A stretch of DNA of 64,000 nt from Actinomycetota bacterium (GCA_003132665.1 PKYN01000019.1:238889-302888); one strand, 5' to 3'; positions 15,231 through 56,043 are shown, counted from the first letter of the stretch. Made by a program: numbers and translations. Notes: a model not told the origin generated them from the letters alone.

Positions 15231-15342
15231 TCTAGGTCGGCTCGACTCGGCCGAGGTCGTCGCATACCGCGAACAAACGACTCGTTCGCCCTCGACGCGG
15301 TGTCTACCTGCCCCGGCGCGGCGATAGATCTACGAGCGAGCT

Positions 15343-16173
15343 CTAGGAGCGAAGGCGTTCGCTCAGTGCCTGGCACAGCTCTTCTGTGCCCGCCGCCGCA
15401 ATCCGCGAACGCGATTCCAGGTCGAGTTGAGAGTCGAGGAAGGACAATTCGCCGTCCACGAACTCGACCGCCAGCCCGACCTCGCGCACCAGCAGCTGCC
15501 CGGCGGCGACGTCGATCGAGCGCGCCGGCTTGAGCGAGCAGACCGCGTCGAGGCGCCCGGCGGCCAGATGGCAGAGCGAAAGCGCGAGCGAGCCCATGAT
15601 GCGCAGACGCTTGGCCAGCCCGACGACGCTCGGCGCTCGCTCGGCGATCTTCGCCGTCTCGGTCGCTTCGAACGCCAGTAGCTCGATCTCGTCCTTGGGT
15701 TTGGTCGCGCCGAGCGCCTCACCGTTCAGCCAGGCGCCCTCACCGCGCCGGGCAGTCCATTCCTCGCCGCTCCCGAAGTCGTAGACGTAGCCGAAGAAGA
15801 CATCGCGCATCTTGTCGCCGTCGGCCACCGCGAGTGAGACCGAGAAGAAGGGAATACCGCGCTTGGCGTTGATCGAGCCGTCAATCGGATCGAGCACGAC
15901 GCGCAGCGAGCCGCCCCCGCCGAACACCCGCTCGCCCAGCTCCTCCGAGACGAGCGTGAAGCCCGGCACGTCCAGTCGCTCGAGCCGGCGCACGACGGCC
16001 TGCTCGGCCGCTTCGTCGATCTGCGTTGTCTCGTCGCCGCCCATGCCGCGGCGCAGAACCTTCTCGCGCTCTTCGCGCGTCGGCAGGCGCTTCAGCTCGG
16101 CGCGGATGTCCTGGACGATGCCGCGGCACAGTTCGAGCAGAGCATCCGCATCGAGTCGGGCTTCGTCGGGCAC
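15343..16173 (-). CDS. Inositol monophosphatase family phosphatase
   Basis: Mg-dependent sugar/inositol phosphatase-like enzyme of 276 residues. The metal-binding block DPIDGSINAKRGIPFFSVSLA and the earlier acidic SEELGE motif are present, as is a late motif near SIDVAAGQLLVREVG in place of the usual WDxAAG, so the substrate may be atypical. GTG 16173 was preferred because the long frame starting at 16395 would run deep into the upstream DUF1015 gene. It follows that gene by 47 bases and is probably cotranscribed with it. Confidence 0.82.
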   Translation of the reverse strand: MPDEARLDADALLELCRGIVQDIRAELKRLPTREEREKVLRRGMGGDETTQIDEAAEQAVVRRLERLDVPGFTLVSEELGERVFGGGGSLRVVLDPIDGSINAKRGIPFFSVSLAVADGDKMRDVFFGYVYDFGSGEEWTARRGEGAWLNGEALGATKPKDEIELLAFEATETAKIAERAPSVVGLAKRLRIMGSLALSLCHLAAGRLDAVCSLKPARSIDVAAGQLLVREVGLAVEFVDGELSFLDSQLDLESRSRIAAAGTEELCQALSERLRS

Positions 16174-16220
16174 CTGGCGATCGTATCCGGCGCGCGGATC
16201 CCCGGCCGATCCTTCGGGCA

Positions 16221-17348: not shown

Positions 17349-17473
17349 GCGAGGAGCGTACCAACCGCCTTCTGACTAGACTCGACTAGTGATCTCCGCC
17401 GAAAATACTGTTCTTTTCGACCGCGAAAACACTGACGCCGGCGACCAGCCGGGGGCGAGGTCGTGATGCAATC

Positions 17474-17573
17474 TCGGCACGATAATGGCGCATTTGGAGC
17501 GGTTTTTCTCGCTACCGTTTCACGACCCCGCGGGTGGGTGGATCCGGCGGGGGGCGTAGTACCGCGGTGCCCT
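17474..17573. repeat. ~100-bp intergenic repeat element, copy B
   Basis: Second copy of the element at 9084-9181, with the same block order and the same complementary ends (GGCAC near the left end, GTGCC near the right). It sits between divergent genes, about 45 bases before the GTG of the OB-HD nuclease gene. Because copy A is not in a promoter region, a dispersed REP/MITE-like repeat is more likely than a cis-regulatory RNA of one gene. Confidence 0.7.
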
Positions 17574-17617
17574 CGCAACCTCGCGGTAAGTAGTCATTCG
17601 AGACGAGCGCCGACGCC

Positions 17618-18454
17618 GTGACCCAGCTCGTCGAGCTTGTAGCGGACAGCGCCGTCGAGGGCGTGTACGCGGTCGCCCGCAAGGAGCGATTGCGGACGAA
17701 AGCGGGCGCCTCCTACCTTGCGCTCGAGCTGACGGACGAGTCCGGTCGCGTCGAGGCGCGCGTGTGGAGCGACGTCGACCTGCTCGATGCGCGTTTCGCC
17801 GAGGGCGACGCGGTGCGCGTGCTGGGGCGGGTCGAAAGCTTCCGCGACAAGCTTCAGATCCAGGTGCGCACGCTCGAGGCGGCGCCCGAGGCCGACCCGG
17901 CGACGCTCGCACCGGCCGGCCGCCGCGATCCCGACGAGCTGGAGGGTTTTCTCGATTTCCTCGTCGCCGAGATCGCGCACGAGGCGCTTCGCTCGACCGT
18001 CACGGCGCTGCTCGAAGGCGGCGACAGGGAGCGGCGCCTGCGCACTCTCCCGGCGACGCGCGAGGGCCACCACAGCTACTCCGGCGGGCTGCTCGAGCAT
18101 ACGGTCGGGGTCGCCACCATCTGCCGCGACCTCTGTCAGCTCCATCCGCGCCTGCGCTCCGACCTGCTACTCGCCGCCGCGCTCACGCACGATCTCGGCC
18201 GCACGCTCGAGCTCGGGCCGGCGCCGCTCTATGCGCCCACCGGCGAGGGGCGGCTACTCGGCCACGTTCAGCTCGGTCTGCGCCTGATCGAGCAGCATGC
18301 AGACGCACTCGGCGCCGACCTGCGAGCGGAGCTCTTGCACGCCGTCGCAGTCCACCACGACGTCCGCGCGGCCCGCACCGCCGAGGCGGCCGCTCTCTAC
18401 CACGCCAACCAGCTCGACACCGTCGCCCAGTTGCGACCGGTCGATTCCGCGTAG
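17618..18454 (+). CDS. OB-fold / HD-domain 3'-5' exoribonuclease, YhaM-like
   Basis: 278 residues: an N-terminal OB-fold nucleic-acid-binding domain (about 1-100, with YLALELTDESGRVEARVW) followed by an HD phosphohydrolase domain with HHSYSGGLLEHT and LTHDLGRTLE supplying the metal-binding histidines and aspartate, and a later AVHHD. This is the architecture of YhaM, a 3'-5' exoribonuclease. GTG start at 17618. Followed after 12 bases by an EamA transporter gene. Confidence 0.87.
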   Translation: MTQLVELVADSAVEGVYAVARKERLRTKAGASYLALELTDESGRVEARVWSDVDLLDARFAEGDAVRVLGRVESFRDKLQIQVRTLEAAPEADPATLAPAGRRDPDELEGFLDFLVAEIAHEALRSTVTALLEGGDRERRLRTLPATREGHHSYSGGLLEHTVGVATICRDLCQLHPRLRSDLLLAAALTHDLGRTLELGPAPLYAPTGEGRLLGHVQLGLRLIEQHADALGADLRAELLHAVAVHHDVRAARTAEAAALYHANQLDTVAQLRPVDSA

Positions 18455-34267: not shown

Positions 34268-34957
34268 GTGGACATATTCACCCTTGAGCTGGAGGCAGTT
34301 CTCGCCGAGGCGGGATGCCCACTTTGCCGCGCCGACGGCATAGACCAGCGCCACTGGATGCAGACCTTCATTCGAGAAGGACATCGCGACACCGGCGTTC
34401 GCCGGCGCTTCCTGGCCAGCGGAGGCTTCTGCGCCGCGCACGCCGATCTCTTCCTCGAGATGGCTCGTGGACAGGAGAAGCTTGTCGTCATCGGACTCGT
34501 CTACAGATCCCTCGTAGAAGAGAACCTCTCTCGACTGCAAGCACTGACGAAGCCGCGCCGAGGCCGAAGGTCGAAGTCGCCTCTGTGGCAGGGAACCTGC
34601 CCGGCCTGCCTCGAGAGAGAGCGGAGCGCAGAGAGAAAGTCCTATTTCTTCTGTGAGGTGCTTGTAGGCGGAGCCTCCCGCGAGCGCTATGCGAGGTCGA
34701 ACGGGCTGTGCGCTGGCCATCTCGCCACGGTTCTCGAGCAAGCGGCCGAGCGGAAGATGCCTCGGGTCTACGAGTTCCTCCTCAACGATTGGATCGAGCG
34801 GCTGACTCTGCTCCGGAGCGGTCTCTCCGAGTTCGACCGCAAGCGCGATTACCGCTTCAAGCACGAGCCCCGGGGTGAGGAGCAGCAAGCTCCGATCGAG
34901 GCTCTGCGACGCTATTCAGGCTCCGGAGGAGCCACGTCGTCCTCGGAATCCGGGTGA
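34268..34957 (+). CDS. DUF6062-like Cys/His protein under fluoride control
   Basis: 229 residues with GTG start and Shine-Dalgarno GGGAGG six bases upstream. It contains two halves with the same metal-site spacing: C17-x2-C20 with C55-x2-H58, and C111-x2-C114 with C148-x2-H151, each half having a GFCAAH / GLCAGH motif. The pattern fits a DUF6062-type protein that probably binds zinc or Fe; no enzymatic motif is seen. It is translated from a message beginning with fluoride riboswitch 1 and is convergent with the MutS-like genes. Confidence 0.75.
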   Translation: MDIFTLELEAVLAEAGCPLCRADGIDQRHWMQTFIREGHRDTGVRRRFLASGGFCAAHADLFLEMARGQEKLVVIGLVYRSLVEENLSRLQALTKPRRGRRSKSPLWQGTCPACLERERSAERKSYFFCEVLVGGASRERYARSNGLCAGHLATVLEQAAERKMPRVYEFLLNDWIERLTLLRSGLSEFDRKRDYRFKHEPRGEEQQAPIEALRRYSGSGGATSSSESG

Positions 34958-35003: not shown

Positions 35004-36491
35004 TTAACCGAAGATTCGCCGATAGGAGTCTCCGCCAAAGCTGGTCGACAGCGGCTCGCCCTCTGTAATTCGAAATGTGCGCGTACCATCGGGCTTTCGC
35101 TCGGCACGGAGGAAGAGAGCGGTACGCAATCCCTGCGCGTGGAAGCCGCTCGCCAGATCGAACATATGGGTAACGAAGAAGATCTTGATCCCTTTCTCGA
35201 GCAGAGCGCGAACTACCTGGCGGGCTATCTCCGGTCCTTCTCGCTCGTTGGTGGACGCGAACGATTCATTGCAGAGCAGGAGGCAGTTGGGCGCTATCGC
35301 CTCTGCTATATCGCTCATCCTGGATAGCTCTTCGTCGAGCTTGCCGCGCTCCATGCTCGTATCTTCTTCGCGTTTGAAGTGGGTGAAGATTCCCTCGCAG
35401 ACGTTGGCACGAAAGGCCTCGGCGCCGATGAACATGCCGCTCTGCATCATCAGCTGCGCCACGCCGACGCCGCGCAGGAGCGTGGATTTTCCGCCCTGGT
35501 TCGCCCCGGTTATCAGCACGAGTGATTTGTCGTCGGCGCCCAACTCGTTACCCACAACCCTTTCGTCGACGTGAAGGGCGAGACAAACGTCGTAGAGACC
35601 GCGAGCATCAATCACGCTCCTCCCCACCGGCAGCGGGATGGGAAGGCACGTCGGCTCGGCTTTTTCGTCGAGTCGTTCATGAAGATTCAGACATCCGAGG
35701 TAGAAGGCGAGCTCGGATCGCACCATGTCGAAGAAGCTCTTAACGTGTTCGGCCGACCGGGCGATCGAATTGGAAACGGGATTGATCCCTCTATTTCGTA
35801 TGTTCGCCAGCGCCAGGAAGCCCCGATCGTCGCGCGGAGGAATCTGGAAGGTGAAGCTCGCAGGCCGTTTCCCAAGCGGAAGCTGCTCCGTCCATCTTCG
35901 TCTCCGAGGAGTGCGGACGACATAGCCGCTGCCCTTATTGCCCTTGGCGAGCGCAGCGCTGATCAGCACACCGCGTCTGAAGCTCAGCGCTTGTAGGTGA
36001 CGCTCGACCGTCTGGAGATAGTCGTCATCGAGCTCCTGTTGGAGCATCGCGAAGAAGCGCGTAAATCCGTCCGACTGGAAACTTCCTGCGGTCTCCTCAG
36101 CGAGCTGCCGGAGTCGCCTGAGCACGGCCACCTGGAGTTTCAGTATCTCCACCGAGCGATAGAGGATCCGATCGGGCGAAGCGCTGGACATGAGCCAGTT
36201 GACCTTCCTCTCGCTCTGAATCGCCTCGATCGCGAGCGCGTACATTTGCCGCACGACCTCCTCGTGCTCGAGACAATCGGTTAGCACTCGCTGCCGATAC
36301 ACGATCTCGTCAGGATCGGTCAGCCCGAGCAGGACTGCCGGCCTCGCAATCCCGTACAGGAAAGGGTCGCCGTCTGCCATCGCGTCCCAGAGGGTCTCCA
36401 GCTCGAGGTCCTGGGTCAGCGCGATTTCGTTTGCCGGCAGCTCGCTTTTCGGATCGAAATCGCGATCGGGATACATGAGCAGGACCTTCAT
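35004..36491 (-). CDS. MutS-like ATPase (second of tandem pair)
   Basis: 495-residue protein with the MutS core (lever helices) and ATPase domains but no mismatch-recognition domain. Walker A is TGANQGGKST near residue 330; the Walker B region near 407 reads LLLCNESFASTNEREG, with asparagine in place of the catalytic aspartate of DE. C-terminal VTHMFDLA matches the MutS H-loop. It overlaps the preceding MutS-like gene by 4 bases (ATGA). MutS-family genes are known members of fluoride riboswitch regulons; their role there is unknown. Confidence 0.88.
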   Translation of the reverse strand: MKVLLMYPDRDFDPKSELPANEIALTQDLELETLWDAMADGDPFLYGIARPAVLLGLTDPDEIVYRQRVLTDCLEHEEVVRQMYALAIEAIQSERKVNWLMSSASPDRILYRSVEILKLQVAVLRRLRQLAEETAGSFQSDGFTRFFAMLQQELDDDYLQTVERHLQALSFRRGVLISAALAKGNKGSGYVVRTPRRRRWTEQLPLGKRPASFTFQIPPRDDRGFLALANIRNRGINPVSNSIARSAEHVKSFFDMVRSELAFYLGCLNLHERLDEKAEPTCLPIPLPVGRSVIDARGLYDVCLALHVDERVVGNELGADDKSLVLITGANQGGKSTLLRGVGVAQLMMQSGMFIGAEAFRANVCEGIFTHFKREEDTSMERGKLDEELSRMSDIAEAIAPNCLLLCNESFASTNEREGPEIARQVVRALLEKGIKIFFVTHMFDLASGFHAQGLRTALFLRAERKPDGTRTFRITEGEPLSTSFGGDSYRRIFG

Positions 36492-38110
36492 GACACGACC
36501 CGCTCGATTAGACGCTCGTAGGTGAGACCGTACTTCTCCGCGATCGCCCAGGCGTAGGCAAGCCCGTCGGCGGGTTTCCTCACGATCTTGAACGTCCGCT
36601 CGGCCGGGTTCTCCGGCACGACCGTGCTGACCATGCTCACAGTCGACTCGCTGAGCGAAGCCAGCTCGTCCACGAACGTTACGTAGACGCCGAGCGGATT
36701 CAGCGCGAGGATCCGCTTCATCACCTCGGTTCCTACGAAGAGCGCATCCTGAAGAGTCGTCGAGCTGAACGTCTCGTTCATAACGATCACGCTCTCGCCG
36801 GTCGCCTCGCCGAGGATCTCGTGCACTCTGACGAGCTCGTCCTCGAGCTTGCCCCTGAGAGTCGCGATGTTCTCTTCCTTCTCGAAGTGGGTGAACAACC
36901 GGTCGGGCAGGACGAGCTGCGCACCCGTGCCGGGCACGAGCAAACCGAGGCTGGCGAGGTAGTGAAGCTGGCCGAACATCCGCGCGAAGGTGGTCTTACC
37001 TCCGTTGTTGGGCCCGGTGACGACGATGACCCGCTCGGGCTCCTCGAGATAGAAGTCGTTGCACACGACCTCTGATCGCTCCCCGATTAGCTTGATCGCT
37101 AGGGCGAGATCGAACGCTTCGTCGGCGAAGGTTCTCGTGGAGTGGGCGGAGACCTGCGGGTAGCAGAACGGCAAGCCGGACTCGCTCAACTTCTCGACCA
37201 GCTCCAGATAGGCGAGGTAGAACTGAACCTCTCGATCGAACCGGTCAATCGCCTCGTCCAGGTAATCGCGGTGACGGGTGCAGTATTCGTCGAGGGGACC
37301 GAAGACGTCCGGATACAGCCTTGCGACGAGCTCGAGGATGCGCGTCTCGATGTGATTCATCTCAGGGTCTTCGGAATAGTTGACCAGGTAGCTCTTTGGC
37401 GTCTGCTGCTCGAACTTCGCGAACGTCTCCTCGAGCTCGGCGCTGTAATCGGCCTCGCCTTCGTACCTGCTAACGGTTACTCGGTCTGCCCTTATCCGCA
37501 TCGTGTACTGAACGCTCGCGAGCAACTCCCTAGATGCCTCTGTCTCGACCGCTAGTGAGCCGAAACCGTCCGAGGCGGTGTAGTTCGTTAGGTAGTCGCG
37601 GAACTCGTTCAGGCCACGCGAGACCACATCGAGCCGAACCAGTTCCTCGGAGAGCAGGCGAACCGCCTCACAGTAAATCGTCACCGCATCGAGAAACCAG
37701 GCTTGCTTCTGAAGCGCGTAGCGGAGCCTCTCGACTTGAGCGAGGTGCTCGCGCATCTGTCGCATCCTCCGCGCGAACGCCTGGATCGACTCACGCACAT
37801 CGCTCTTCTCGAGGTCGCGCAGTACCTCGTGTCGATAAGTCACCGACTCGACCTCGTGCAGAGGAGCGTAGAAGAACGGCCCGAGGTCGTACTCGCTGCG
37901 ACCGGCCATCATCGACTCCAGCACCTGATCGAGGTTCAGATCGCCGAAGAAGTCCGGTTCTCCCAGCCGCATGGCTTCGGCGCTCGCTCCGGGTTTATCG
38001 AAGAGGATGCTCTCGAAGCTTCCCGAGCGGACGTCCTCGGCGGGTGCCCGCTGCTTCGCCACGCCTCCTGCCGGAGACGGCTCGGTGTCGGAACGAAGAG
38101 AGCGCGCCAT
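36488..38110 (-). CDS. MutS-like ATPase (first of tandem pair)
   Basis: 540-residue paralogue of the next gene, with helical clamp/lever region and ATPase domain. Walker A is TGPNNGGKTT near residue 365; the Walker B region reads VIVMNETFSSTTLQ, again NE instead of DE. VYVTFVDELASLSE corresponds to the switch near the H-loop. The first ~40 residues are polar and variable. Middle gene of the operon led by fluoride riboswitch 2, starting 12 bases after the dynamin-like gene. Confidence 0.88.
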   Translation of the reverse strand: MARSLRSDTEPSPAGGVAKQRAPAEDVRSGSFESILFDKPGASAEAMRLGEPDFFGDLNLDQVLESMMAGRSEYDLGPFFYAPLHEVESVTYRHEVLRDLEKSDVRESIQAFARRMRQMREHLAQVERLRYALQKQAWFLDAVTIYCEAVRLLSEELVRLDVVSRGLNEFRDYLTNYTASDGFGSLAVETEASRELLASVQYTMRIRADRVTVSRYEGEADYSAELEETFAKFEQQTPKSYLVNYSEDPEMNHIETRILELVARLYPDVFGPLDEYCTRHRDYLDEAIDRFDREVQFYLAYLELVEKLSESGLPFCYPQVSAHSTRTFADEAFDLALAIKLIGERSEVVCNDFYLEEPERVIVVTGPNNGGKTTFARMFGQLHYLASLGLLVPGTGAQLVLPDRLFTHFEKEENIATLRGKLEDELVRVHEILGEATGESVIVMNETFSSTTLQDALFVGTEVMKRILALNPLGVYVTFVDELASLSESTVSMVSTVVPENPAERTFKIVRKPADGLAYAWAIAEKYGLTYERLIERVVS

Positions 38111-38122
38111 CTGCTTACCTTT

Positions 38123-39850
38123 CTATCCGCCGGATGAAGCCTTCTCGCGACGACCCAAGGCAAGAGCGACGTTGTCGAGCTGCTCGGCCTTTTTCCTGAG
38201 GTCGCGCAGGCGAATCTCGACTTGGCGGCGCCCGGTTCGCTGCTCGCGTCCCGCTCTATCGAGCGCCGAGCGCACTTGCCCGATTGCCTCCTCCAGCGCC
38301 GACTCGAGCTCGTCGCGATAGTCGCCGGCGCTTGCCTTGATTCGCTCAGCCAGATCCGACCTGAGCCGGCCGGCGTGACGATCAAGAAGCATCCTCAGGC
38401 GGCTTTTCGCCTCGCGTAGAGCGAGGCGGCGGCCAAGCGAACCGGGGACGAGCTTCTGCCCGAGATCGACAAGCTGATCGAGCGCCTGCGCCTCGTCGCG
38501 TAGCTTGAAGGTGAAGCGCGCGGGCGTGTGCAGGTCGAGGGTCGGCAGCTGCAGCGGCGGCCGTGAGCCGAATGCCTGCTCGGCCGCCTCGGCGATCTCC
38601 TCGAGGATTCCACGCATGCGCGAGCCGTAGCGTTTCTCCGCCCGCTCGAGCGCATCCGCGATCTCCGCCTCGAGCTCGGGCGCGAGCTTGAGCGTGTCGG
38701 CCTGGATGATTTCCTCGACGCCGTGTCGCAATGCGAGCGTGAACTTGCGTGTCCCGCCGTCGATAGCTGCAGCCTTGCCATCGAGCGAGCTCTCAAGCGC
38801 CTTCGCGTGTCCGGCCGCATAAGCAAGGAGCGGCTCGTTCACCTGCATCCGAATGATGTCCTCCACCGCGCGCTCGAGTAGTAGTCGCGCCTCCTCGCGC
38901 GCATCCTGAAGAGCGGCGAGCGAACGCTCGAACGAAGCAAGCCGCCCCTCCAGCTCCTCCAACGGTAGCTCGAGCGCATGCGCCTCGAAGCGGGCGGCCT
39001 GGGCAGCGTCGGCGGCGAACGTGCCGGCAAGCAGCGCAACCGACTCGAGTAGCGTCTCGCGCCGTTCCGAAGCAATGAAGCGCTGGAGTCGATCGTGGAG
39101 AGATTCGATTCCCGTGGAATAGCGTGCGCTTACGGCGAAGAGCTCAGGGCTACCGCTTCCCTCGGCATCGACGAGCCGGGAGCGAATGAAGTCGAGCGCG
39201 ATCTCCTCCTCGCCCGGGCCGAGCACGTCGATCTTGTTGACGGCGTAGAAGAGCTTCGGAGTGCGCTCGGCCAGCTCGGCGAGAAGCCGCTGCTCGTCGC
39301 CCGAGAGTGGCTGCTCGGCCGTGAGGACGACCAGCGCGGCGTCGATCTGCGGGAAGAAGCGCCTAGCGGTTTCGGTGTTGTGCACGTGCACCGAGCCGAG
39401 CCCGGGCGTATCGACAAGCTGGAGTCCCTGCTCGAGCAACGGATGTGGCAGCTCGACGATCGCGATCTCGACCCCACGCTCGTTGTTCGGGTTCTCGGCC
39501 TCGGTGACGAAGGCGTTGAGATCTGCAAGCGGGTGCTCGCTCTCGCTTCCGTCGAGGAAGCGCACGATCAGGCGCTCGCGCTCCCCGAAGCGAACCAATG
39601 TGATGATCGACGTCAGCGGCACGACTCCCGTCGGAAGCAGATCGCGCTCGAGCAAGGCATTGATGAGTGTGCTCTTGCCGCGTTTGAACTCGCCGACGAC
39701 GACTAGGTTGAGCCGGTCCTCGCTCAGTCTTCTTGCCGCTTGCTCGAGCTCGTACCGAGAGCGCTCCGGAACGAGCTCCCGGGCAAGCTCGCCCAGCTCA
39801 CCCGCCTTCGTGAGCAGTTGCTCCCGATCCAGCTCAGGTACGTCCCGCAT
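38123..39850 (-). CDS. Dynamin-family GTPase
   Basis: 575-residue large GTPase of the bacterial dynamin-like type: G1 GEFKRGKSTLINALL, switch threonine in LTSIITLVRF, G3 DTPGLGS, G4 NKID, followed by long coiled helices typical of the stalk. Such proteins act on membranes, for example in repair. ATG 39850 is preferred over ATG 39862 because a GGAAG Shine-Dalgarno lies five bases before it, and that same GGAAG is complementary to the changed P1 strand of riboswitch 2. Leads the operon with two MutS-like genes. Confidence 0.87.
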   Translation of the reverse strand: MRDVPELDREQLLTKAGELGELARELVPERSRYELEQAARRLSEDRLNLVVVGEFKRGKSTLINALLERDLLPTGVVPLTSIITLVRFGERERLIVRFLDGSESEHPLADLNAFVTEAENPNNERGVEIAIVELPHPLLEQGLQLVDTPGLGSVHVHNTETARRFFPQIDAALVVLTAEQPLSGDEQRLLAELAERTPKLFYAVNKIDVLGPGEEEIALDFIRSRLVDAEGSGSPELFAVSARYSTGIESLHDRLQRFIASERRETLLESVALLAGTFAADAAQAARFEAHALELPLEELEGRLASFERSLAALQDAREEARLLLERAVEDIIRMQVNEPLLAYAAGHAKALESSLDGKAAAIDGGTRKFTLALRHGVEEIIQADTLKLAPELEAEIADALERAEKRYGSRMRGILEEIAEAAEQAFGSRPPLQLPTLDLHTPARFTFKLRDEAQALDQLVDLGQKLVPGSLGRRLALREAKSRLRMLLDRHAGRLRSDLAERIKASAGDYRDELESALEEAIGQVRSALDRAGREQRTGRRQVEIRLRDLRKKAEQLDNVALALGRREKASSGG

Positions 39851-39875
39851 GCGTTCTTCCATGGCCTCGGATTGG

Positions 39876-39932: not shown

Positions 39933-39959
39933 ATATTACCCGGTCGTCGAGGCGGTCAA
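39933..39959 (-). promoter_or_regulatory. Candidate promoter of dynamin-MutS-MutS operon
   Basis: On the leftward strand TTGACC (39959-39954) and TAATAT (39938-39933) are 15 bases apart, and TAATAT ends eight bases before aptamer 2. The same GGTAATAT with the same eight-base gap precedes aptamer 5. The promoter overlaps the 3' end of the MFS gene. Confidence 0.5.
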
Positions 39960-41150
39960 GCGCGCGCGGTTGAGAGCGAACGCGAGCGCCATCAACGCGG
40001 CGGCGTAGCCGAAGCCGACGATCGGGGAGAAGATCGCCCAGAGCAGGCCGACGGCGAGCGAGGAGGTGAAGTCGCCGAGCGACTGCACACCGCCGAGAAC
40101 GCCGAAGCCGCTGCCGCGGAGCTCGTCCGGAAGCGCCCTGGCGACGAGCGTCGACTCCGCCGTCTCGACGAGGCCGATGCCGGCGCCGGCAAGCGCGAAG
40201 CCACCGATCAAGAGAGGCCAGGCGGTACCGGCCAGGGCAAAAAAGACGTAGCCCCCGAAAAACAAGGCCGTCCCGGTGCCGAAGACGACGCGAGCGCCGA
40301 ACCTGTCGGTCGCATGGCCGCCGGGTATCGAGATCAGGGAGCCGACAAGGTTGTGACCCGCATACAGAAGGATCGCGAGAACGGTTGCGTTTGTGAGGCT
40401 GCGGCTGTCGGTAAGCACCGTCGTGGCGCGCAGGATGAGCAGCGTCGTCGCACAGTTCCCGAGTTCGAAGGCGCCGACCGGAAGAAGCGTGCGGGTTAGC
40501 CCGCTCGCATGAAGGCCGCGCAGTTCGAGCCGAAAACGGCGACGAACCCCGGTGTGAAGACGTCGCGCCTCGGCGGCGGCGACAGTGATCGCGAGCGCCG
40601 CGAGCACGCCTGGGATCGCCGCGAGGTAGAACGTGTGACGAATGCCGATGAGGGCGACGAACCCTGCGGCGGCGAGCGGTCCGGCGACCGCGCCGAGGTT
40701 GTCCATCGCCCGCTCATAGCCGAAGGCTCGCCCGTAGGCCTCCTTCGGCGCGAGTGAGGCGAGCAGCGAATCCCGCGCCGGCGTTCGCGCGCCACGAGCG
40801 ACCCAGGCGAACGCGCGCAAGATGCCGACTTGCCAGGTCGCCGTGGCCAGACCTATCGCCCCGGTCGCCACCGCTGTGCCGATGTAGCCGCCGCTCGCGA
40901 GCCGACCGCGGCGCTCCTCATCGTTCGAGGCGGCGCCGCCTGCGAGCTTCGCTATTCCGGCGAGGCCGTCGCTGACGCCTTCGATCACACCGAGCGCGCC
41001 CGGCGAGGCACCTAGCGTGTGGGTGAGAAAGCCCGGCAAAACCGAGGTTGCGATCTCATGGCCGGAGTCGCTGAAGAAGCTCGCGGCGCCCACGCTGCCG
41101 ACGCCGCGCGTCAACCAGCGTTCCTCGACTCTTTCGTCCGACCTCGGCAT
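39936..41150 (-). CDS. MFS transporter
   Basis: 404-residue major facilitator protein with about twelve helices. FFSDSGHEIATSVLPGFL in helix 1 and GVIEGVSDGLAGIAKLAGG in helix 2 place it in the same broad subgroup as the MFS gene at 52328 (compare VVEGLLGVGVTLARYLSG). It has no recognisable aptamer of its own, but it sits between aptamers 2 and 3 and may be cotranscribed into the dynamin operon. Substrate unknown. Confidence 0.87.
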   Translation of the reverse strand: MPRSDERVEERWLTRGVGSVGAASFFSDSGHEIATSVLPGFLTHTLGASPGALGVIEGVSDGLAGIAKLAGGAASNDEERRGRLASGGYIGTAVATGAIGLATATWQVGILRAFAWVARGARTPARDSLLASLAPKEAYGRAFGYERAMDNLGAVAGPLAAAGFVALIGIRHTFYLAAIPGVLAALAITVAAAEARRLHTGVRRRFRLELRGLHASGLTRTLLPVGAFELGNCATTLLILRATTVLTDSRSLTNATVLAILLYAGHNLVGSLISIPGGHATDRFGARVVFGTGTALFFGGYVFFALAGTAWPLLIGGFALAGAGIGLVETAESTLVARALPDELRGSGFGVLGGVQSLGDFTSSLAVGLLWAIFSPIVGFGYAAALMALAFALNRARLTASTTG

Positions 41151-41169: not shown

Positions 41170-41189
41170 TCTAGAATTGAAAGACGTTG

Positions 41190-41240
41190 CGGCGATGAGG
41201 CTCGCCGACGACCGCGCGGTTCGCGCTGATGGCCTCTAGA
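41190..41240 (+). ncRNA. Fluoride riboswitch 3 (crcB motif)
   Basis: GGCGATGAGGCTCGCC (41191-41206), P2 hairpin GCGCG/CGCGC, and GCTGATGGCCTCTA (41225-41238) give the full crcB aptamer. The 100 bases before the HEAT gene hold AGAGGG shortly downstream, able to pair with CCTCT of P1, and the GGAGG Shine-Dalgarno of the gene, which is also complementary to CCUCU. Confidence 0.92.
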
Positions 41241-41340
41241 ACGAGAGGGTCATAGTCGTGCGAGAGCCGCATAGCGCCGAATCGCTTTTTCCCATACGCC
41301 CTTTTCGGACGAGCCTGGCGGAAAGTCGGAGGGGACTCCG

Positions 41341-42534
41341 ATGAAGAAGCTCGCGTCATCGCGGCGAGCTGCATCGGATCCAAGCGACCGCCTGACGGAG
41401 GTGCTTTCCTCCGGACGCGACGCCAGGGCGCGAATCAGACTGCTCCGAGCGGTCGAGGACGTCTCGCCCATAGTTGCTAAGCGCGCGCTCAAACGACTCG
41501 CCGAAGTCGGCGGCCCAGACGAAGCGAAGCGCCTTCGCGAGCTGCTCTTCGCTCTCGACCTGGCCGTCATCCCCGCCTGCGTGCAGACACTGATAGCCCT
41601 CGGCGAGGAGGACAAGAGCAGAGGGGAAGCCGTGAGGGAGCTTTCGTCCTCCTTGAACGACGTACGCCTGAAGGCGGCGCTCGTGCTGCGCGAGGTTGCC
41701 AATCCCTCTAGCGCCGGGGCGCTGCGAGCGGCACTCCGAGACCCGCTCGCGAACGTACGCCGGGTTGCGCTCGAGGCACTCGCGCGGCTCCCTGATGATG
41801 GAAAGAATCTCGCTGCGGCGCTCGAGTTGACGGGCGATGAAGACGAGACCGTTCGCGCGGCGCTCGTGCGTGCGGTCGTCGCGCTCGCCGCCAACCCGGG
41901 TCCGACCTTGGCCTGTTTCCTCGAAGATCCAGCCGCGGTCGTGCGTCTCGCGCTCGCGCGAAACACCGCGTCGCTCAGCGTGGGGGCCATCTCCTTGCTG
42001 CTCGAGGACGGTAACTACGACGTTCGCTCGCAGACTCTCTGGTCGCTCGTCGAAGAGCCGAGGCCCGAGCTTGCAGATGCCATTGTTGCCCGGCTCGAGG
42101 ACAACCACTGGGCCGTGCGCCGAGCTGCTTGTCGAGCGCTTGGGGCAGCGGGAACCGAGAGCGCGTTTCGGCCGTTGCTCTGCCGCCTCGTCGACTCGAG
42201 CTCAATCGTTCGTGAGGCAGCGCTACGGGCTCTTCGTGAGATCTTCGAGGACGACCTTCCTCTGCTTCTGAGAAGCGCAGCCTTGACCGAGCGAGAGCCG
42301 GGCCTTAGACGCCGGATCGTCTACGCGATCGGCAAGACCGCACGTGGCGACCTCGCTGGGCTAGTTGAACCGTTCGCAGCGGATTCGGATGCCGACGTCC
42401 GTCTCGCAGTTGTGAGAGTCCTAACCGATCGTCCGCAAACAAACCGAAACGGGATACTCAAGGAACTCGCGAAGGACGATGACCTCGCCGTTCGTCAAGC
42501 GGCTCGTTTCCTCCTGGGAGTGCCTGGTGACTAG
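41341..42534 (+). CDS. HEAT-repeat protein under fluoride control
   Basis: 397 residues made of about ten HEAT/PBS-lyase-like repeats of ~31 residues (for example AALRDPLANVRRVALEALARLPDD and VARLEDNHWAVRRAACRALGAAG), forming a helical solenoid for protein binding. No enzymatic domain. Shine-Dalgarno GGAGGGG lies before ATG 41341. First gene of an operon with a small helical protein and UspA, headed by fluoride riboswitch 3. A second, shorter HEAT protein with a zinc ribbon is at 43627. Confidence 0.85.
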   Translation: MKKLASSRRAASDPSDRLTEVLSSGRDARARIRLLRAVEDVSPIVAKRALKRLAEVGGPDEAKRLRELLFALDLAVIPACVQTLIALGEEDKSRGEAVRELSSSLNDVRLKAALVLREVANPSSAGALRAALRDPLANVRRVALEALARLPDDGKNLAAALELTGDEDETVRAALVRAVVALAANPGPTLACFLEDPAAVVRLALARNTASLSVGAISLLLEDGNYDVRSQTLWSLVEEPRPELADAIVARLEDNHWAVRRAACRALGAAGTESAFRPLLCRLVDSSSIVREAALRALREIFEDDLPLLLRSAALTEREPGLRRRIVYAIGKTARGDLAGLVEPFAADSDADVRLAVVRVLTDRPQTNRNGILKELAKDDDLAVRQAARFLLGVPGD

Positions 42535-42895
42535 CGAGTCAACACACCTGTCGCTCAACCAAGCGCAGCGGCGGGCGATCGGTCACGGGATCAACGGGAT
42601 ACATGCGCTTCTTCGGGAGTTGAAGGTTGGGGGGTACAAAGGAGGGTGCATTACGGATCTCGAGGGGGCGCTCGAGCACTTCGAGCAGACGACTGCGGCA
42701 GAACCACCGCGTGCCGCTCGCAGTAATGTGGCCGTCATTTTCGCCCAGCTGCTCACCCTCGTCTACGAACTTCGCCCGTCGACATTGGAGGAGTATGGTC
42801 CGCTTGACGCCGCCGCCCACGCCTATCTCGACCGGGAAGCGGGACGGCTGATCGAGCTCACCGGAGTGCTAATAGACACACTATCCACCCGATAA
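42527..42895 (+). CDS. Small helical protein, unknown
   Basis: 122 residues from GTG 42527, which overlaps the stop of the HEAT gene. Predominantly helical and without recognised motifs: LNQAQRRAIGHGINGIHALLRELKVGG, then ARSNVAVIFAQLLTLVYEL and a C-terminal helix. Its coupling to the HEAT gene and to UspA (14 bases downstream) suggests a shared role in the fluoride response. Confidence 0.7.
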   Translation: MTSESTHLSLNQAQRRAIGHGINGIHALLRELKVGGYKGGCITDLEGALEHFEQTTAAEPPRAARSNVAVIFAQLLTLVYELRPSTLEEYGPLDAAAHAYLDREAGRLIELTGVLIDTLSTR

Positions 42896-42909
42896 GAAGG
42901 GAGAGGTAG

Positions 42910-43332
42910 ATGCCGTTCTCGAATCTTCTCGTCGCGATTGACGGAAACCCGAGCGGGCAGAAGGCGCTCGAGACCGCCATAGAGCTCTCGAAGCTGATCG
43001 GATGCCCTTTGGCCGTGCTCGTTGTCGAGGGCCCGCTGCCCGCCTATGCCGCCACGGTCGGCGAGGTGGAAGAGGTGAAGAACGAGAAGGACGCGTTCTT
43101 CGAAAGAATCATCCGACTCGCTCGCGAAAAAGCCAAGGAGGCGGGAGTCGAGGTCGACGTTTCGATGCACGTCGGCCACCCGGCCGAGGTCATCGTGCGC
43201 GAGGTAGAGGCGCGGAAGGCAGATCTCGTCGTTGTCGGACACAAGGATCACTTCCTCGGCGACTACGTGCTCGGCTCGACCGCCGATCGAGTCGCCCATC
43301 ACGCGCCCTGTCCGGTATTGATCGTTCGTTAG
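42910..43332 (+). CDS. Universal stress protein UspA family
   Basis: 140-residue Usp with FSNLLVAIDGNPSGQKALETAIEL at the start and the ATP-binding end GHKDHFLGDYVLGSTADRVAHHAPCPVLIVR (the G-x2-G-x9-G-S/T pattern is present). UspA-family genes are known in fluoride riboswitch regulons. Third gene of the riboswitch-3 operon, with a GGGAGAGG Shine-Dalgarno. Its end overlaps the end of a small convergent gene. Confidence 0.92.
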   Translation: MPFSNLLVAIDGNPSGQKALETAIELSKLIGCPLAVLVVEGPLPAYAATVGEVEEVKNEKDAFFERIIRLAREKAKEAGVEVDVSMHVGHPAEVIVREVEARKADLVVVGHKDHFLGDYVLGSTADRVAHHAPCPVLIVR

Positions 43333-45362: not shown

Positions 45363-47192
<1,830 letters not shown>

Positions 47193-47193
<1 letters not shown>

Positions 47194-48464
47194 TAGGCGT
47201 GGACTGTCCGGGCGTAGCGCCTGAATGACCTCACCCCCTCCAGCGCCGAGACGAGCGGCATCCCCTCCCGCCACTCGACGACAGGGACGCCTAAGCATTC
47301 GTAACGGTAACGAAGCGCATCGCGCCAGAGACGCCAGACGCGAAGCGAGAGCTCGCCGAGCGAGTCGTCCTCTCCGACTGCGTACTCGAGCGGCGAGACA
47401 TCGACAATTGCGAGATCGAATCCGCGCCGGCGCAGGTCGAGCAGGGCATCGATCGTCCGCTCGTCGAGCAGTGGAGTCAGCGCGATCACGAGCGACTGCG
47501 GTGGCAGGGTGTGGCTAGGGACCGTGTCGATCTTCCGCCACGCATATGAGAAGTGAACCTCCGTCTTGAGCAGCGTCTCGACGATCCTGTATAGCTGCTC
47601 GGAGCCTCCGGCGGGCGTCAACCAACGCACGATGCCGCCGAAGCTCACGAGCCCGACCCGATCGCGCCTCTCGAGGTAGGCGGTGGCTAGTGCCGTCGTG
47701 GCTCGCACCGCTCGGTCGAGAGTGCCCTCGCCGGCACGGCGCGCCTCGGCGAAGCTGTCGACGAATAGCACGACGTCGGCGTTTCGCTCCGGGTGACTCT
47801 CGTTCACGTGCAGAGTTTGCCGGCGGGCGCTTGTGCGCCAGTTGATCCTGCGCACCTGATCGCCGGGGCTGAACTGTCGTATGTCGGCGAACTCGATCCC
47901 GTCACCCTTGACTCGTGCAACCTGGTTGCCCGTGTAGGGCTGCGTTTCCACCGGATCGATCAATTGCCGCAACCGCTCCGCGCTTGGATATACGCGCAGA
48001 GCGAGCGCGGGCTCTATCCGCGTCTCGTCAACGACCAGACCGAAGCGATCGAATGCCCTCAATCTCACGGCGCCGAGCCGATAGGCGCCCCAGCGCCGAC
48101 AACGGATCCCGAGCGGTATTACACGAGACTCATCAAGCCCGAAGTGCATCGTCTGAGGAGGATCCTGCTTGAGCTCGAGGCCGAAGGGGAGCACGGGCTC
48201 GAGTTCGAGTCGCTCGATCCCCGTTTCCGACCCGAGCGTCAACGTCAGGTCGAGATCCTCGCCTTCGACGGCGACTGTTCGCCCGAGCGATAGCTCGACG
48301 GCGACGTGTTGCGCAGGGAGGCGAGCGAGACCGATCGAGAGGAAGAGCACGAAGGGCGCTGCCAGCGACACGAGCTCTGGCCGACCGAGAATGATCGCGG
48401 CCAGCAGGCCAACCGCGGCGAGCGCCGCGTACGCGCGCAGCTTCGGCAGCGCCGCTCGTCTCAT
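47193..48464 (-). CDS. DUF58 domain protein
   Basis: 423-residue DUF58 protein: two N-terminal membrane helices (about 8-45), a beta-rich domain, the DUF58 signature EFADIRQFSPGDQVRRINW near residue 215, and a von Willebrand A-like end with VVLFVDS and LVIALTPLLDE. DUF58 proteins are usual partners of MoxR AAA ATPases. Start ATG 48464 overlaps the MoxR stop (ATGA); the frame continues upstream but that part reads as MoxR antisense-free shadow. Confidence 0.88.
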
Positions 48465-49429
48465 CTGCCGGCCTCGGCCGTCTCCGCGGGTGGGGTCGGC
48501 ACGGTCTCGAGTATCTCCCGCACAACATCCTCGCCGCTTATCTGCTGTACCCACAGCTCAGGTCGCAGTGAGATTCGGTGCGCGAGAGCCGGTACGGCGA
48601 CAGCCTTGACGTCTTCGGGCGTAACGAAGTCGCGTCCAGCGAGCGCGGCGCGGCAGCGCGCGAGCTTCATCAATGCGAGCGAGCCGCGCGGGCTCGCACC
48701 GACCTGAGCGCGCGGGCTTTCTCGCGTCGCCGCGACGAGGTCGACGATGTAGAGCTGGATCGGCTCCGAAACATGGACGTCCTCAATGGCACGCTGCATC
48801 TCCAGGAGCCCCGCCGCGTCAATGACCGGCTCCAGCTTCGTCTCGTCGCTACGGCGCTCGATCCGGCGATCCAGCACCTTGACCTCGTCGAGCCGCCCCG
48901 GGTAGCCGATCGAGAGGCGCAGCAGGAAGCGGTCGAGCTGGGCCTCCGGAAGGGGATAGGTTCCTTCGTACTCGATCGGGTTCTGAGTCGCGAGCACGAG
49001 GAACGGAGGCGCGAGCGGCCGCGTCTCGCCCTCGACGGTGACCTGGCGCTCCTGCATCGCCTCCAGCAGCGCCGCCTGCGTTTTCGGGGGAGTGCGGTTG
49101 ATCTCGTCGGCAAGGAGCAGGTTGGTGAAGATCGGGCCGGGCCGGAACTCAAAGTCACTGGTGCGCTGGTTGTAGATCGAGGAGCCGGTCACGTCCGCTG
49201 GCATCAGGTCCGGGGTGAACTGGATACGGGTGAAACGCATCTCGGTGACCTGCGCAAACGAGCGCGCGATCAGAGTCTTGGCAAGACCGGGGTAATCGTC
49301 GATCAGCACGTGGCCGTCGGCGAGCATGCCCATCAGCACGAGCTCGAGTGCCTCGCGTTTCCCGATCACGACACGCTCGACCTCGTCCAGAATGGGCCGT
49401 GCGTGGCCTGCGACTTCCTCGACTCTCAT
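48461..49429 (-). CDS. MoxR-family AAA+ ATPase
   Basis: 322-residue AAA+ ATPase thought to act as a chaperone or maturase for vWA-domain partners. Walker A is the family variant DDYPGLAKT, Walker B LLLADEINRTPPKTQAALLEAMQE, sensor 1 LATQNPIEYEG. It overlaps its neighbours on both sides by a few bases, indicating tight coupling with the 171-residue membrane gene and DUF58. Confidence 0.93.
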   Translation of the reverse strand: MRVEEVAGHARPILDEVERVVIGKREALELVLMGMLADGHVLIDDYPGLAKTLIARSFAQVTEMRFTRIQFTPDLMPADVTGSSIYNQRTSDFEFRPGPIFTNLLLADEINRTPPKTQAALLEAMQERQVTVEGETRPLAPPFLVLATQNPIEYEGTYPLPEAQLDRFLLRLSIGYPGRLDEVKVLDRRIERRSDETKLEPVIDAAGLLEMQRAIEDVHVSEPIQLYIVDLVAATRESPRAQVGASPRGSLALMKLARCRAALAGRDFVTPEDVKAVAVPALAHRISLRPELWVQQISGEDVVREILETVPTPPAETAEAGR

Positions 49430-49944
49430 TAGATCGCCTCCAGATCCTCGATTAGCGCTCTTAGCTCATCAGAACTCAAACCTCGCGCGAAACGGTTCTC
49501 CGGCGGCTCCTGTTCTTCCTCGAGCAGTCGCCAGAGGCGCTCGCTCATAACCTCCCGCGCGCGCTCGGGCTCGCGCTCGAGAACGATGCCGTAGCGACGA
49601 GCGAGCGCCACCGCGGCGATCTGGCGAACGAGCGGGCGAAATCTAATCCGTAGATCGAAGGCACTTTGCCGAGCCGCGCGCAGGTTCCGTTCTATCCAGC
49701 GAACTTGCCGAAGGGACTGTGGCGCGGGTTGCTGCCGCCCGCCGCCCGAGCCGTACAGGGACGAGACGACGGGCATCGCCTGCCGCAACCAGGCAATGAG
49801 GCCGATAAGCCCGAGTGCGAGCAGAAAGAACAGGTACGCAGCGAGAGCAAGCGCTCGGACATGCGTACCAAGTCGCAGAGCCGTCGCAAACACGCCGGCG
49901 CCAACCGCCGCGGCCACCGACAGCCGGATGATCGCGCCCCTCAT
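49429..49944 (-). CDS. Two-helix membrane protein, operon partner of MoxR
   Basis: 171 residues. Two hydrophobic helices at about 5-25 and 31-52, then a cytoplasmic helical domain with LARRYGIVLEREPERAREVMSERLWRLL. Not assigned to a family, but a protein like this often lies between DUF4129 and MoxR genes. ATG overlaps the stop of the DUF4129 gene. Confidence 0.75.
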   Translation of the reverse strand: MRGAIIRLSVAAAVGAGVFATALRLGTHVRALALAAYLFFLLALGLIGLIAWLRQAMPVVSSLYGSGGGRQQPAPQSLRQVRWIERNLRAARQSAFDLRIRFRPLVRQIAAVALARRYGIVLEREPERAREVMSERLWRLLEEEQEPPENRFARGLSSDELRALIEDLEAI

Positions 49945-50861
49945 CGACCGCCTCGAAGCTCGGCCGAAAGCTGACCCAGCGCCGACAGCGCGTCGCCGCG
50001 CATCGACTCGTCGATCGCGTGCTTGCTGAACTTGGCGCGCTCGAAAAGCGAGGTTAAACCGGCGATCGATTGTCCGCTCGCGTGCAGGTGCTGCAACGCT
50101 CGTGCGAGGTACTCGAGCGGAGCCTCGGGAGGGTTGCGCGCGATGCCAGCCTCGCCGAGCGCGAGCTCCATGCGCGCGTAAGCCTTGATCACGGCCCGGC
50201 GAGGATCGCGCTCACTCTCGAGATCGTCGATTCCAGCCTCGATCGCGCTCGCCAACCTCTCGGCTCGTTCCGAGGGGGTGAAGACGCTACTCCGGCGATG
50301 CCTCAACACCAAGACGACGAGCGCGGCGAGCGCCAAGCCGGCGAGGACAGCCAAGGCGAGCCAATGGATACCTAGTCCACCCCCGTGCGTGGATGCAGTG
50401 GGCTCAACGTGCGTGGGCGATCCGGGATGCCGGTGTGGGGGCACGGTTGGCGTGGTTGTGTTACTGCCCTTACGTTGGTAGAGAAACACGAACGCGACGA
50501 TCGGTGTAGCGAAAACGACGAGCAGGAGCAGGTAGAGCGGCAGCATTTCCCGGTGCGAAACCGGCGGCCGCTCGATAGCGATTGCGGACCGATTGCGGAT
50601 CCGCCCGGACTTCAAGATCGAGACCAACAGAGCGAGGGTTAGGAACCCAAACGCGATTAGCACCAGGAGCACATATCCGAACCCGATCGAGACATGACGA
50701 GCAGCCGGTGGTGATCCGAGACGAGAGTGCACCCCGGGAATTACGAACGCAAGGCCGAAGACGAGGAGCGCGAGCGCAGCCGCGAGAACGCCCGTTTGCC
50801 AGAGTCCCCAAGGTGCCGGAGCGTCAGCCCGGATCTCTCGCGCTACTCGCTGCTCGCTCAC
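49941..50861 (-). CDS. DUF4129 membrane protein, first gene of fluoride operon
   Basis: 306 residues from GTG 50861: four hydrophobic helices (roughly 15-37, 52-80, 105-127, 160-180) and a C-terminal DUF4129 domain (SDPRRAVIKAYARMELALGEAG, then PLEYLARAL). The first ATG in frame (50921) lies inside aptamer 4 and so cannot be the start; AAGGAGG at 50875-50869 fits GTG 50861. The Shine-Dalgarno is complementary to the aptamer's P1 strand. Confidence 0.85.
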   Translation of the reverse strand: MSEQRVAREIRADAPAPWGLWQTGVLAAALALLVFGLAFVIPGVHSRLGSPPAARHVSIGFGYVLLVLIAFGFLTLALLVSILKSGRIRNRSAIAIERPPVSHREMLPLYLLLLVVFATPIVAFVFLYQRKGSNTTTPTVPPHRHPGSPTHVEPTASTHGGGLGIHWLALAVLAGLALAALVVLVLRHRRSSVFTPSERAERLASAIEAGIDDLESERDPRRAVIKAYARMELALGEAGIARNPPEAPLEYLARALQHLHASGQSIAGLTSLFERAKFSKHAIDESMRGDALSALGQLSAELRGGR

Positions 50862-50893
50862 ACACACGCCTCCTTGGAATCGCCGATGCTCCT

Positions 50894-50910
50894 GACCGCC
50901 CGAAGCGGTC
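50894..50910 (-). other. Hairpin between aptamer 4 and its gene
   Basis: GACCGC/GCGGTC with a five-base loop follows P1 of aptamer 4 directly. No T-run follows, so it is not an intrinsic terminator; it may be part of the expression platform. Confidence 0.5.
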
Positions 50911-50962
50911 ATAGAGGCCATCAGCGCCGGAGGGCGCGCTCGAAGGCGAGCCTCATCGCCTA
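50909..50962 (-). ncRNA. Fluoride riboswitch 4 (crcB motif)
   Basis: Read leftwards: GGCGATGAGGCTCGCC (50960-50945), P2 GCGCC/GGCGC, then GCTGATGGCCTCTA (50924-50911). Pseudoknot and P1 (GAGGCU/GGCCUC) are intact. GCCTC of P1 is complementary to GAGGC overlapping the Shine-Dalgarno of the DUF4129 gene. It heads the DUF4129-MoxR-DUF58-enolase operon. ACGCTAT, a candidate -10 box, lies six bases upstream. Confidence 0.93.
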
Positions 50963-51011
50963 TTCAATAGCGTAACTGACGAAGAGGGATGCCCGCGCCG
51001 AAATCTTCCGG

Positions 51012-54803: not shown

Positions 54804-55053
54804 CGCGTGTCGGGACCGAGTGCGCTCGGCCCCGAGTACAGCGACTACCGCTAGAAAGTTTCACTCACCGGGCGCAGGGGACGCAGAACACGGCGGGCAT
54901 CCTCCGCTTGCCAAGATAAGGTGATCTGACGTAGGCGGCGAAGTCGTTAGGAGCGCTATCGTCTCACCTATCTCGTAGAGTTGTCGTTCATGATGATCTC
55001 GGCCATCTGTTCGGGTGTATGTTCAGCTCGCCGAGTGGCAGGAAAGCACCTCA

Positions 55054-56040
55054 ATGGCGACCGCTGACCAGGTCAAAGCCCTCATCAGAAGCCACGCAGA
55101 CGGCGACGACACGAAGTTCTATTCGGTGGCTCTGCAGGTAGCTGCGCGCGCCGCTCGCGGTGGCCAGGGTCGTTTTGCCCAGGATCTCCGCGACCTCGTT
55201 GATCAGCTTCGGAAGGAAGAGGGGCGGCGTACGCACGCGCATCGCCGTCCGGTCCCCGTCGCTCAACCGAAGGGCGAACTCTCATCTCTGCTCACTGTCT
55301 CGTACTCGACTACGAAGATGGCCGATCTCGTTTTGGAGCCGGAGGTTCGTGACCGACTCGAGCGAGTAGTCCTGGAGCAACGACAGAATGATCGGCTACA
55401 AGCTCAGGGCTTTCGTCCTCTCCGACGACTTCTCCTGATCGGTCCACCGGGTACCGGCAAGACTCTGTCCGCGAGCGCGCTAGCCGGCGAACTGCGACTT
55501 CCGCTCTTCTTGATCCGGCTTGATGGTCTTATCACCAAGTTCATGGGCGAAACGGCCGCGAAACTTAGGCTCGTCTTCGACGCTCTCGCCGAAACGCGCG
55601 GTCTCTACCTATTCGATGAGGTGGATGCGCTAGGCGGAGAGCGTGCGCGGTCCAATGACGTGGGCGAAATACGCCGTGTGCTGAACTCGTTTCTCCAATT
55701 CCTAGAGCAGGAGCCCTCAGACAGCATCCTCGTCGCGGCAACGAACCACCCACAACTCCTTGACGAAGCGGTCTTTCGCCGTTTCGACTCGGTAATCCAG
55801 TACCCGCTCCCCACGCCCGAACTGGCGCGAGCTGTGATCCGAAGTCGACTTGCGACCGTGAAGCTCGGCCGTATCTCGTGGCCAAGGATCGACGACGCCG
55901 CGGCTGGGCTGAGTCACGCAGAGGTCACCCTTTCGGCTGAGCAGGCAGCTAAGGATGCGATCTTGGCCGGCAAGGAGCGAGTAGAAACGGACACGTTGGT
56001 CGCAGCGCTGCGAGAACGGCACCCGCGTAGCGCTTCCTAA
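55054..56040 (+). CDS. ietA: IetA-like AAA ATPase
   Basis: 328-residue AAA+ ATPase. A helical N-terminal region (about 1-85) precedes Walker A GPPGTGKT near residue 130, Walker B LYLFDEVDAL near 187, sensor ATNHP and an arginine finger in FRRFDSV. ATG 55054 with GGAAAG eight bases upstream was preferred to the TTG-type start at 55015. It is directly followed by a subtilisin-like protease; this ATPase-protease pair is the IetAS system, first described for plasmid stability and reported as an anti-phage system. Confidence 0.85.
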   Translation: MATADQVKALIRSHADGDDTKFYSVALQVAARAARGGQGRFAQDLRDLVDQLRKEEGRRTHAHRRPVPVAQPKGELSSLLTVSYSTTKMADLVLEPEVRDRLERVVLEQRQNDRLQAQGFRPLRRLLLIGPPGTGKTLSASALAGELRLPLFLIRLDGLITKFMGETAAKLRLVFDALAETRGLYLFDEVDALGGERARSNDVGEIRRVLNSFLQFLEQEPSDSILVAATNHPQLLDEAVFRRFDSVIQYPLPTPELARAVIRSRLATVKLGRISWPRIDDAAAGLSHAEVTLSAEQAAKDAILAGKERVETDTLVAALRERHPRSAS

Positions 56041-56043
56041 AGC

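Follow-up and report, generated by a model that had tools for sequence, protein, structure and literature searches.

A fluoride-riboswitch operon combining two MutS-like ATPases that carry altered ATP-site motifs with a dynamin-like GTPase

What could two MutS-like ATPases and a dynamin-like GTPase be doing together under the control of fluoride? The question is raised by a locus in a 64,000-nucleotide (nt) stretch of DNA from an Actinomycetota bacterium (GCA_003132665.1, PKYN01000019.1:238889-302888; the whole stretch is hereafter called the window), where the minus strand carries, in 5' to 3' order, a gene for a dynamin-like GTPase and genes for two MutS-like proteins, MutS-B and MutS-A. The dynamin and MutS-B genes are 12 nt apart and MutS-B overlaps MutS-A by 4 nt (ATGA), and on these grounds the three genes are regarded as one operon. 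Pfam matches to Dynamin_N and MutS_V agree with a preliminary description of the locus as a dynamin-like GTPase with two tandem MutS-like ATPases; the interval given in it, 35004-39850, does hold the three genes, but the gene block extends to 39862 (35004-39862) and the riboswitch lies outside that interval. This riboswitch, a fluoride aptamer (RF01734) scoring above the gathering threshold of 34 bits, heads the operon and bears out the fluoride control assumed in the same description. It starts immediately behind an MFS transporter gene and stops 8 nt short of the dynamin ATG (39862), and this short distance suggests control at the level of translation. Fluoride riboswitches bind Mg-fluoride and increase expression (PMC11139923). 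A scan for sigma-70 promoters gave nothing informative. We read the locus as a fluoride-inducible operon in a multi-riboswitch island, joining a remodelling ATPase module formed by the MutS pair to a dynamin module, and hold this reading with about even confidence.

Analysis of the ATP-site motifs revealed that Walker B is VIVMNETFSSTT (VIVMNETF) in MutS-B and LLLCNESFASTN (LLLCNESF) in MutS-A. In both proteins the asparagine of the NE pair aligns with the Walker B aspartic acid of MutS, which confirms the reported replacement of DE by NE. A protein search over 399 genomes of the class identified the MutS pair in 10, and every usable full-length sequence from this search has NE in both proteins. 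Among species-representative genomes, 557 MutS-A relatives were confirmed by a scan, and 80 of them were kept for the counts; these span Actinobacteria, Chloroflexi, Firmicutes, Proteobacteria, Acidobacteria, Bacteroidetes, Spirochaetes, Thermotogae and archaea. Culturable carriers of the pair include Paraburkholderia phenazinium LMG 2247 and Variovorax. The asparagine is present in 80 of 81 MutS-A rows (85 of 86 once the class relatives are counted in) and in all 75 MutS-B rows. NE is fixed in the fluoride-linked family, and the observation has withstood the refuting condition set for it in the preliminary description, homologues in fluoride clusters having DE. The sole MutS-A with DE (VLLDESFAATNE, locus L053) is otherwise typical, indicating that the reversal has been tolerated at least once. 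Retention of NE among homologues at about 50% identity places it far from chance. An ascertainment artefact of the NESF search pattern was considered and ruled out, because MutS-B had no part in that search and is nevertheless NE throughout; the whole-protein search over the class also returned only NE. Among the MutS_V proteins of eight carrier genomes NE occurs only in the pair, the corresponding motifs being DEIGRGTST in MutS1, DELGAGTDP in MutS2 and DEIFRGTNS in short MutS-like proteins. KamC proteins have DE in 14 of 14 cases.

The ABC signature and the switch histidine are also altered, changes that the preliminary description overlooked. In the ATPase-domain alignment the signature is GK[LF] in both proteins (GKL in the window's own MutS-A and MutS-B), at a position where STF or SSF stands in the majority of the remaining MutS-type families in that alignment; the lysine is found in 83 of 86 MutS-A sequences, with arginine in the other three, and in 63 of 65 MutS-B sequences. 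The histidine is kept in MutS-A (86/86) and is phenylalanine in MutS-B (65/65), the window's own proteins reading VTH and VTF, respectively. Profile alignment to E. coli MutS chains places the altered positions at Asp693, Ser668 and His728, the first two changed in both subunits and the third in one, with Glu694 and the P-loop asparagine retained. According to a review (PMC3848065), Asp693, Ser668, His728, Glu694 and Asn616 are key MutS residues in the signalling between the ATP site and the remainder of the protein, and substitution at any of the first three ruins MutS repair. As judged from these alignments, the signature change, the histidine-to-phenylalanine change and the aspartate-to-asparagine change together rebuild the ATP sites. 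The same literature lends some weight to another explanation, in which NE and GK are marks of degeneration and the pair, having no useful ATPase activity, serves as a nucleotide-binding sensor or scaffold: in MutS, substitution of Asp693 or Ser668 abolishes function (PMC3848065). Decay of this kind is quite unlikely, however, given what has been preserved. The glutamic acid after the asparagine, that is the catalytic glutamate, is invariant in both proteins wherever the residue is present; the lysine and preceding glycines of Walker A (GPN-GGK[ST]) are conserved in both; these and the MutS-A switch histidine are invariant over many phyla, and the replacement residues are fixed too.

Phylogenetic analysis placed MutS-A and MutS-B as sister clades, apart from MutS1, MutS2, KamC and short MutS proteins (support 100/99). 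MutS-B is directly followed by MutS-A at 65 of 66 loci, and a mirror-tree comparison of the two families gave a correlation of 0.876 against a permutation maximum of 0.275, a value to which common ancestry contributes. On the strength of the sister clades, the adjacency and the distance-matrix correlation, we infer that MutS-A and MutS-B most likely form a heterodimer. The conserved unit is the MutS pair and not the trio.

Domain analysis showed how much of MutS the two proteins retain. Both belong to the MutS superfamily, with MutS_V (PF00488) scores of 68.4 and 61.6 bits against a cut-off of 30.2. None of 86 MutS-A and none of 65 MutS-B members matches any of the Pfam domains MutS_I to MutS_IV, so that no mismatch-recognition or connector domain was found and the reported lack of a mismatch-binding domain applies to both families. 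No member of either family matches Smr; the proteins stop after the ATPase domain and lack the KOW plus SMR combination of MutS2. If occasional weak AAA or FtsK matches are disregarded, members match MutS_V alone. AlphaFold2 models of MutS-A (predicted local distance difference test score 89.1, predicted template-modelling score 0.87) and MutS-B (85.1 and 0.82) retrieved MutS, Msh2/Msh3 and MutS2 with Foldseek. In both models lever helices and an ATPase domain are predicted, with only a two-stranded hairpin, its loops of low confidence, in the position of the clamp; this hairpin is basic in MutS-A (family mean +5) and neutral in MutS-B.

The MutS fold of both proteins, the basic MutS-A hairpin in the clamp position and the annotation 'DNA repair (mutS)' given in 2010 (PMC2864571) would suit a pair that slides along DNA as a clamp under fluoride stress, serving repair or blocking recombination but recognising no mismatches. 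This we consider unlikely, though worth keeping in view, since the mismatch and connector domains are missing and the clamp is reduced, since signature, Walker B and histidine are changed at residues that MutS requires (PMC3848065), and since the neighbours are metabolic and transport genes in a genome without a detected MutL. MutL (TIGR00585) gave no match in this genome, which is 77.5% complete, and none above cut-off in the 41 genomes searched; no further MutS protein was found in this 77.5% complete genome either. Mismatch repair itself is unlikely to be the pair's job, because there is no recognition domain and neither MutL nor another MutS in the genome at that completeness.

Comparison with MutS2 revealed a shared core fold that likewise lacks the mismatch and connector domains, and MutS2 is among the best sequence-profile and fold matches. 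MutS2 uses this lever/clamp/ATPase core to split ribosomes that have stalled (PMC10897456), and the pair might by extension be a heterodimeric analogue that rescues or splits ribosomes when fluoride-metal complexes jam translational GTPases. The pair has neither of the domains through which MutS2 is recruited, KOW and SMR, however, and pair-bearing genomes also retain MutS2 itself, which makes this role decidedly unlikely. The pair further differs from MutS2 in being heteromeric, in having NE for DE and GK[LF] for STF, and in the loss of the histidine from MutS-B. KamC, the lysine 5,6-aminomutase reactivase ATPase (NF052383), resembles the pair in being about 500 amino acids (aa) long and MutS-like without mismatch domains, and by its NCBIfam name it is a precedent for an enzyme reactivase of the MutS family; it differs in having DE and an S-x-F type signature and in forming a separate clade. 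Membership of the KamC family, suggested by NCBIfam, was rejected for the pair on account of scores of 66 bits for MutS-A and 36 for MutS-B against a cut-off of 300, the DE of KamC and its separate place in the tree. The Foldseek matches of the pair include E. coli MutS D693N (PDB 3k0s), a laboratory equivalent of the natural asparagine; that protein is a mutated repair protein, whereas in the pair the asparagine is evolutionarily fixed alongside changes that look compensating.

The preferred reading, a remodelling ATPase induced by fluoride, can be put in mechanistic terms. MutS-A and MutS-B would form a heterodimer made up of the MutS lever and ATPase core with a reduced clamp and without mismatch or connector domain. 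The pair would close on ATP as a sandwich in which the GK motif of each subunit meets the nucleotide of its partner, giving two composite sites with asparagine for aspartic acid, glycine-lysine for the trans-acting serine-threonine, the catalytic glutamate kept and a switch histidine in MutS-A alone. The asparagine would be expected to weaken the holding of Mg2+ and the signature lysine to supply charge, resulting in slow, asymmetric hydrolysis, and cycling of this kind is possibly less prone to being trapped by Mg- or Al-fluoride phosphate mimics. The pair may be a clamp gated by ATP, or a remodelling ATPase, whose target is some enzyme or cellular machine, protein or nucleoprotein, that is damaged under fluoride, by analogy with the action of MutS2 on ribosomes and of KamC on its mutase. 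Enolase and phosphoryl-transfer enzymes are among the targets of fluoride (PMC11139923). The dynamin, for which a membrane role is putative, most likely maintains the membrane through which hydrogen fluoride enters. A bolder proposal, which we rate as speculative and rather improbable, is that the fixed D-to-N, S-to-G and T-to-K replacements adapt the enzyme to the chemistry of fluoride itself, the composite site being freed from the Mg2+ cage that Mg-, Al- and Be-fluoride mimics exploit; such an ATPase would keep working, or would sense metal-fluoride complexes, while other ATPases and GTPases are poisoned. On this proposal the pair would be a remodelling ATPase dedicated to the fluoride response and found across domains of life.

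The surroundings of the pair in other genomes were analysed with a riboswitch model built from 12 Rfam-type matches. The model matches in 55 of 78 pair loci and within 500 nt upstream of MutS-B in 33 of 65, and Rfam confirms many of these matches, up to five per locus. At loci L050 and L064 four to five fluoride riboswitches of Rfam grade each head a different gene. Fluoride islands are the usual setting of the pair, and the genes that recur beside it encode dynamin, MFS, enolase, CPA antiporter, CrcB, pyrophosphatase and universal stress protein (USP). Those for enolase, pyrophosphatase, antiporters and CrcB have an established place in the fluoride response (PMC11139923). The fluoride-resistance operon FRM of Enterobacter cloacae likewise clusters CrcB, enolase and pyrophosphatase, as far as the accessible part of its description goes (PMC5533749, cited in PMC11139923).

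Three considerations weigh against our reading. Ten pair loci without a match to the riboswitch model also have no Rfam fluoride riboswitch within about 8 kb, and the link of the pair to fluoride is therefore common and not universal; several of these ten loci still carry enolase, MFS or USP genes. The basic hairpin of MutS-A could contact nucleic acid, making a role on DNA or RNA possible. By analogy with MutS, which is inactivated by substitutions at Asp693 and Ser668 (PMC3848065), the pair might hydrolyse ATP slowly or not at all.

The dynamin-like GTPase has intact G1 (GEFKRGKST), G3 (DTPG) and G4 (NKID) motifs in translation, and its nearest solved relatives are BDLP (2j68, 1e-22), CjDLP (5owv) and IniA (6j72), with a LeoA match at 6e-16. 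It shares the Dynamin_N GTPase domain and a similar length with these bacterial dynamin-like proteins and differs from them in forming a subfamily of its own that is found in fluoride-riboswitch islands. An anti-phage role was rejected: PADLOC gave only weak mad8 matches for the MutS proteins and a LeoA match for the dynamin that is expected of any dynamin, and the neighbours are fluoride genes.

The three proteins might form a single machine, with the dynamin driven or regulated at the membrane by the two ATPases; this can be judged by how regularly they occur together. They share a single operon here, and at 24 of 78 loci, in several phyla, the pair has a dynamin gene no more than about 8 kb away. 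Of 33 close dynamin homologues in 18 carrier genomes, 28 are found no further than 16 kb from the pair, a proportion to be read with the fact that 14 of the 18 genomes were picked for a dynamin known beforehand to be near the pair. The closest pair-bearing relatives, however, have no dynamin, and in those whose contig covers the region the riboswitch immediately precedes MutS-B. Among the 399 class genomes the dynamin occurs in 15, and only the present genome has both it and the pair, which rules out an obligate trio. Nine of nine dynamin loci in pair-less class genomes (L206-L214) lie inside fluoride-riboswitch islands; in eight the dynamin gene immediately follows a riboswitch, and in eight there is at least one Rfam fluoride riboswitch above threshold. 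These dynamins are often accompanied by CrcB, CPA antiporter, USP or enolase. A single machine is accordingly very unlikely. A fluoride-controlled dynamin family exists in its own right, independent of MutS, and as it stands in fluoride islands without the pair, the trio amounts to two modules of the same fluoride regulon, each able to occur alone, that have been joined locally. The preliminary description had taken the pairing with a membrane-remodelling GTPase as an argument against DNA repair; its conclusion is supported for mismatch repair, but the argument from the pairing is weak because the dynamin is separable, and co-occurrence of the three genes holds only at part of the loci. Its interpretation as a whole is partly supported. 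At one locus (L109, region 10935-18228, Acidicapsa dinghuensis) several tandem dynamin-like genes surround CrcB in one fluoride island.

An association between fluoride riboswitches and MutS was first listed by Weinberg et al. in 2010, where 'DNA repair (mutS)' is among the genes behind the crcB RNA, now the fluoride riboswitch (PMC2864571). Given the same riboswitch association, that 'mutS' is very likely the same family as the pair; the accessible part of the text carries the DNA repair label and describes no pair, no NE or GK motifs and no dynamin. It was the sole match for fluoride with MutS or dynamin in the open literature (subscription papers lay outside the search), where no report of fluoride, MutS and dynamin in combination was found, nor any description of the pair's motifs or of a dynamin under fluoride control. 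The rebuilt ATP site, the asymmetry between MutS-A and MutS-B and the fluoride-controlled dynamin family appear to be new. On the present evidence, the 'mutS' that has passed for DNA repair since 2010 is a separate, ancient and apparently heteromeric branch of the MutS superfamily across many bacterial phyla and archaea. This opens the questions of what fluoride-damaged component requires a dedicated ATPase and whether a P-loop enzyme can evolve resistance to metal-fluoride mimics of phosphate. The dynamin result points to membrane maintenance as a likely and little-recognised arm of fluoride resistance, and bears on microbes that degrade organofluorine compounds.

Table 1. Features of the operon and of its surroundings in the window.
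Feature	Coordinates	Strand	Evidence and remarks
Fluoride riboswitch aptamer RF01734	39871-39933	minus	cmscan 41.3 bits, E 5.1e-8; heads dynamin-MutS-MutS operon
Dynamin-like GTPase	38123-39862	minus	579 aa; Pfam Dynamin_N (PF00350) 1.3e-27
MutS-B	36488-38110	minus	540 aa; MutS_V 1.3e-16
MutS-A	35004-36491	minus	495 aa; MutS_V 1e-18
Second fluoride riboswitch RF01734	34192-34252	plus	cmscan 38.1 bits, E 5.6e-7; precedes DUF6062 gene
DUF6062 protein	34268-34957	plus	PF19538 7.8e-11; convergent with MutS operon
MFS transporter	39936-41150	minus	MFS_1 1.3e-29; just upstream of dynamin riboswitch
Probable fluoride riboswitch, sub-gathering	41182-41245	plus	28.3 bits, E 6.9e-6 (own-genome search); precedes HEAT-repeat/USP genes
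HEAT-repeat protein, small unknown open reading frame, universal stress protein	41341-43332	plus	Pfam HEAT_2, Usp
Enolase	45363-46646	minus	translation; resembles enolases of other pair islands
DUF4129/MoxR/DUF58 gene run	46660-50921		terminates near enolase
Probable fluoride riboswitch, sub-gathering	50905-50969	minus	29.9 bits, E 2.1e-6 (own-genome search); precedes DUF4129/MoxR/DUF58 run
AAA ATPase beside subtilase	55015-58596	plus
Helix-turn-helix protein with N_BRCA1 Ig-like domain	59108-59809	minus

The remaining features of the window are given in Table 1. Enolase is an enzyme known to be inhibited by fluoride. A riboswitch search of the genome itself added one match above threshold outside the window and the two sub-threshold matches inside it. 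The HEAT-repeat and USP genes, which point away from the MFS-dynamin side, probably belong to the same fluoride regulon as the MutS operon. No fluoride connection was seen for the helix-turn-helix protein or for the AAA ATPase beside the subtilase. The DUF6062 gene, having its own fluoride riboswitch, is a member of the regulon, and DUF6062 homologues recur in further fluoride islands (L050, L077, L080, L086 and L211). The probable riboswitch ahead of the DUF4129/MoxR/DUF58 run overlaps the start of its first gene, whose real start may be further in.

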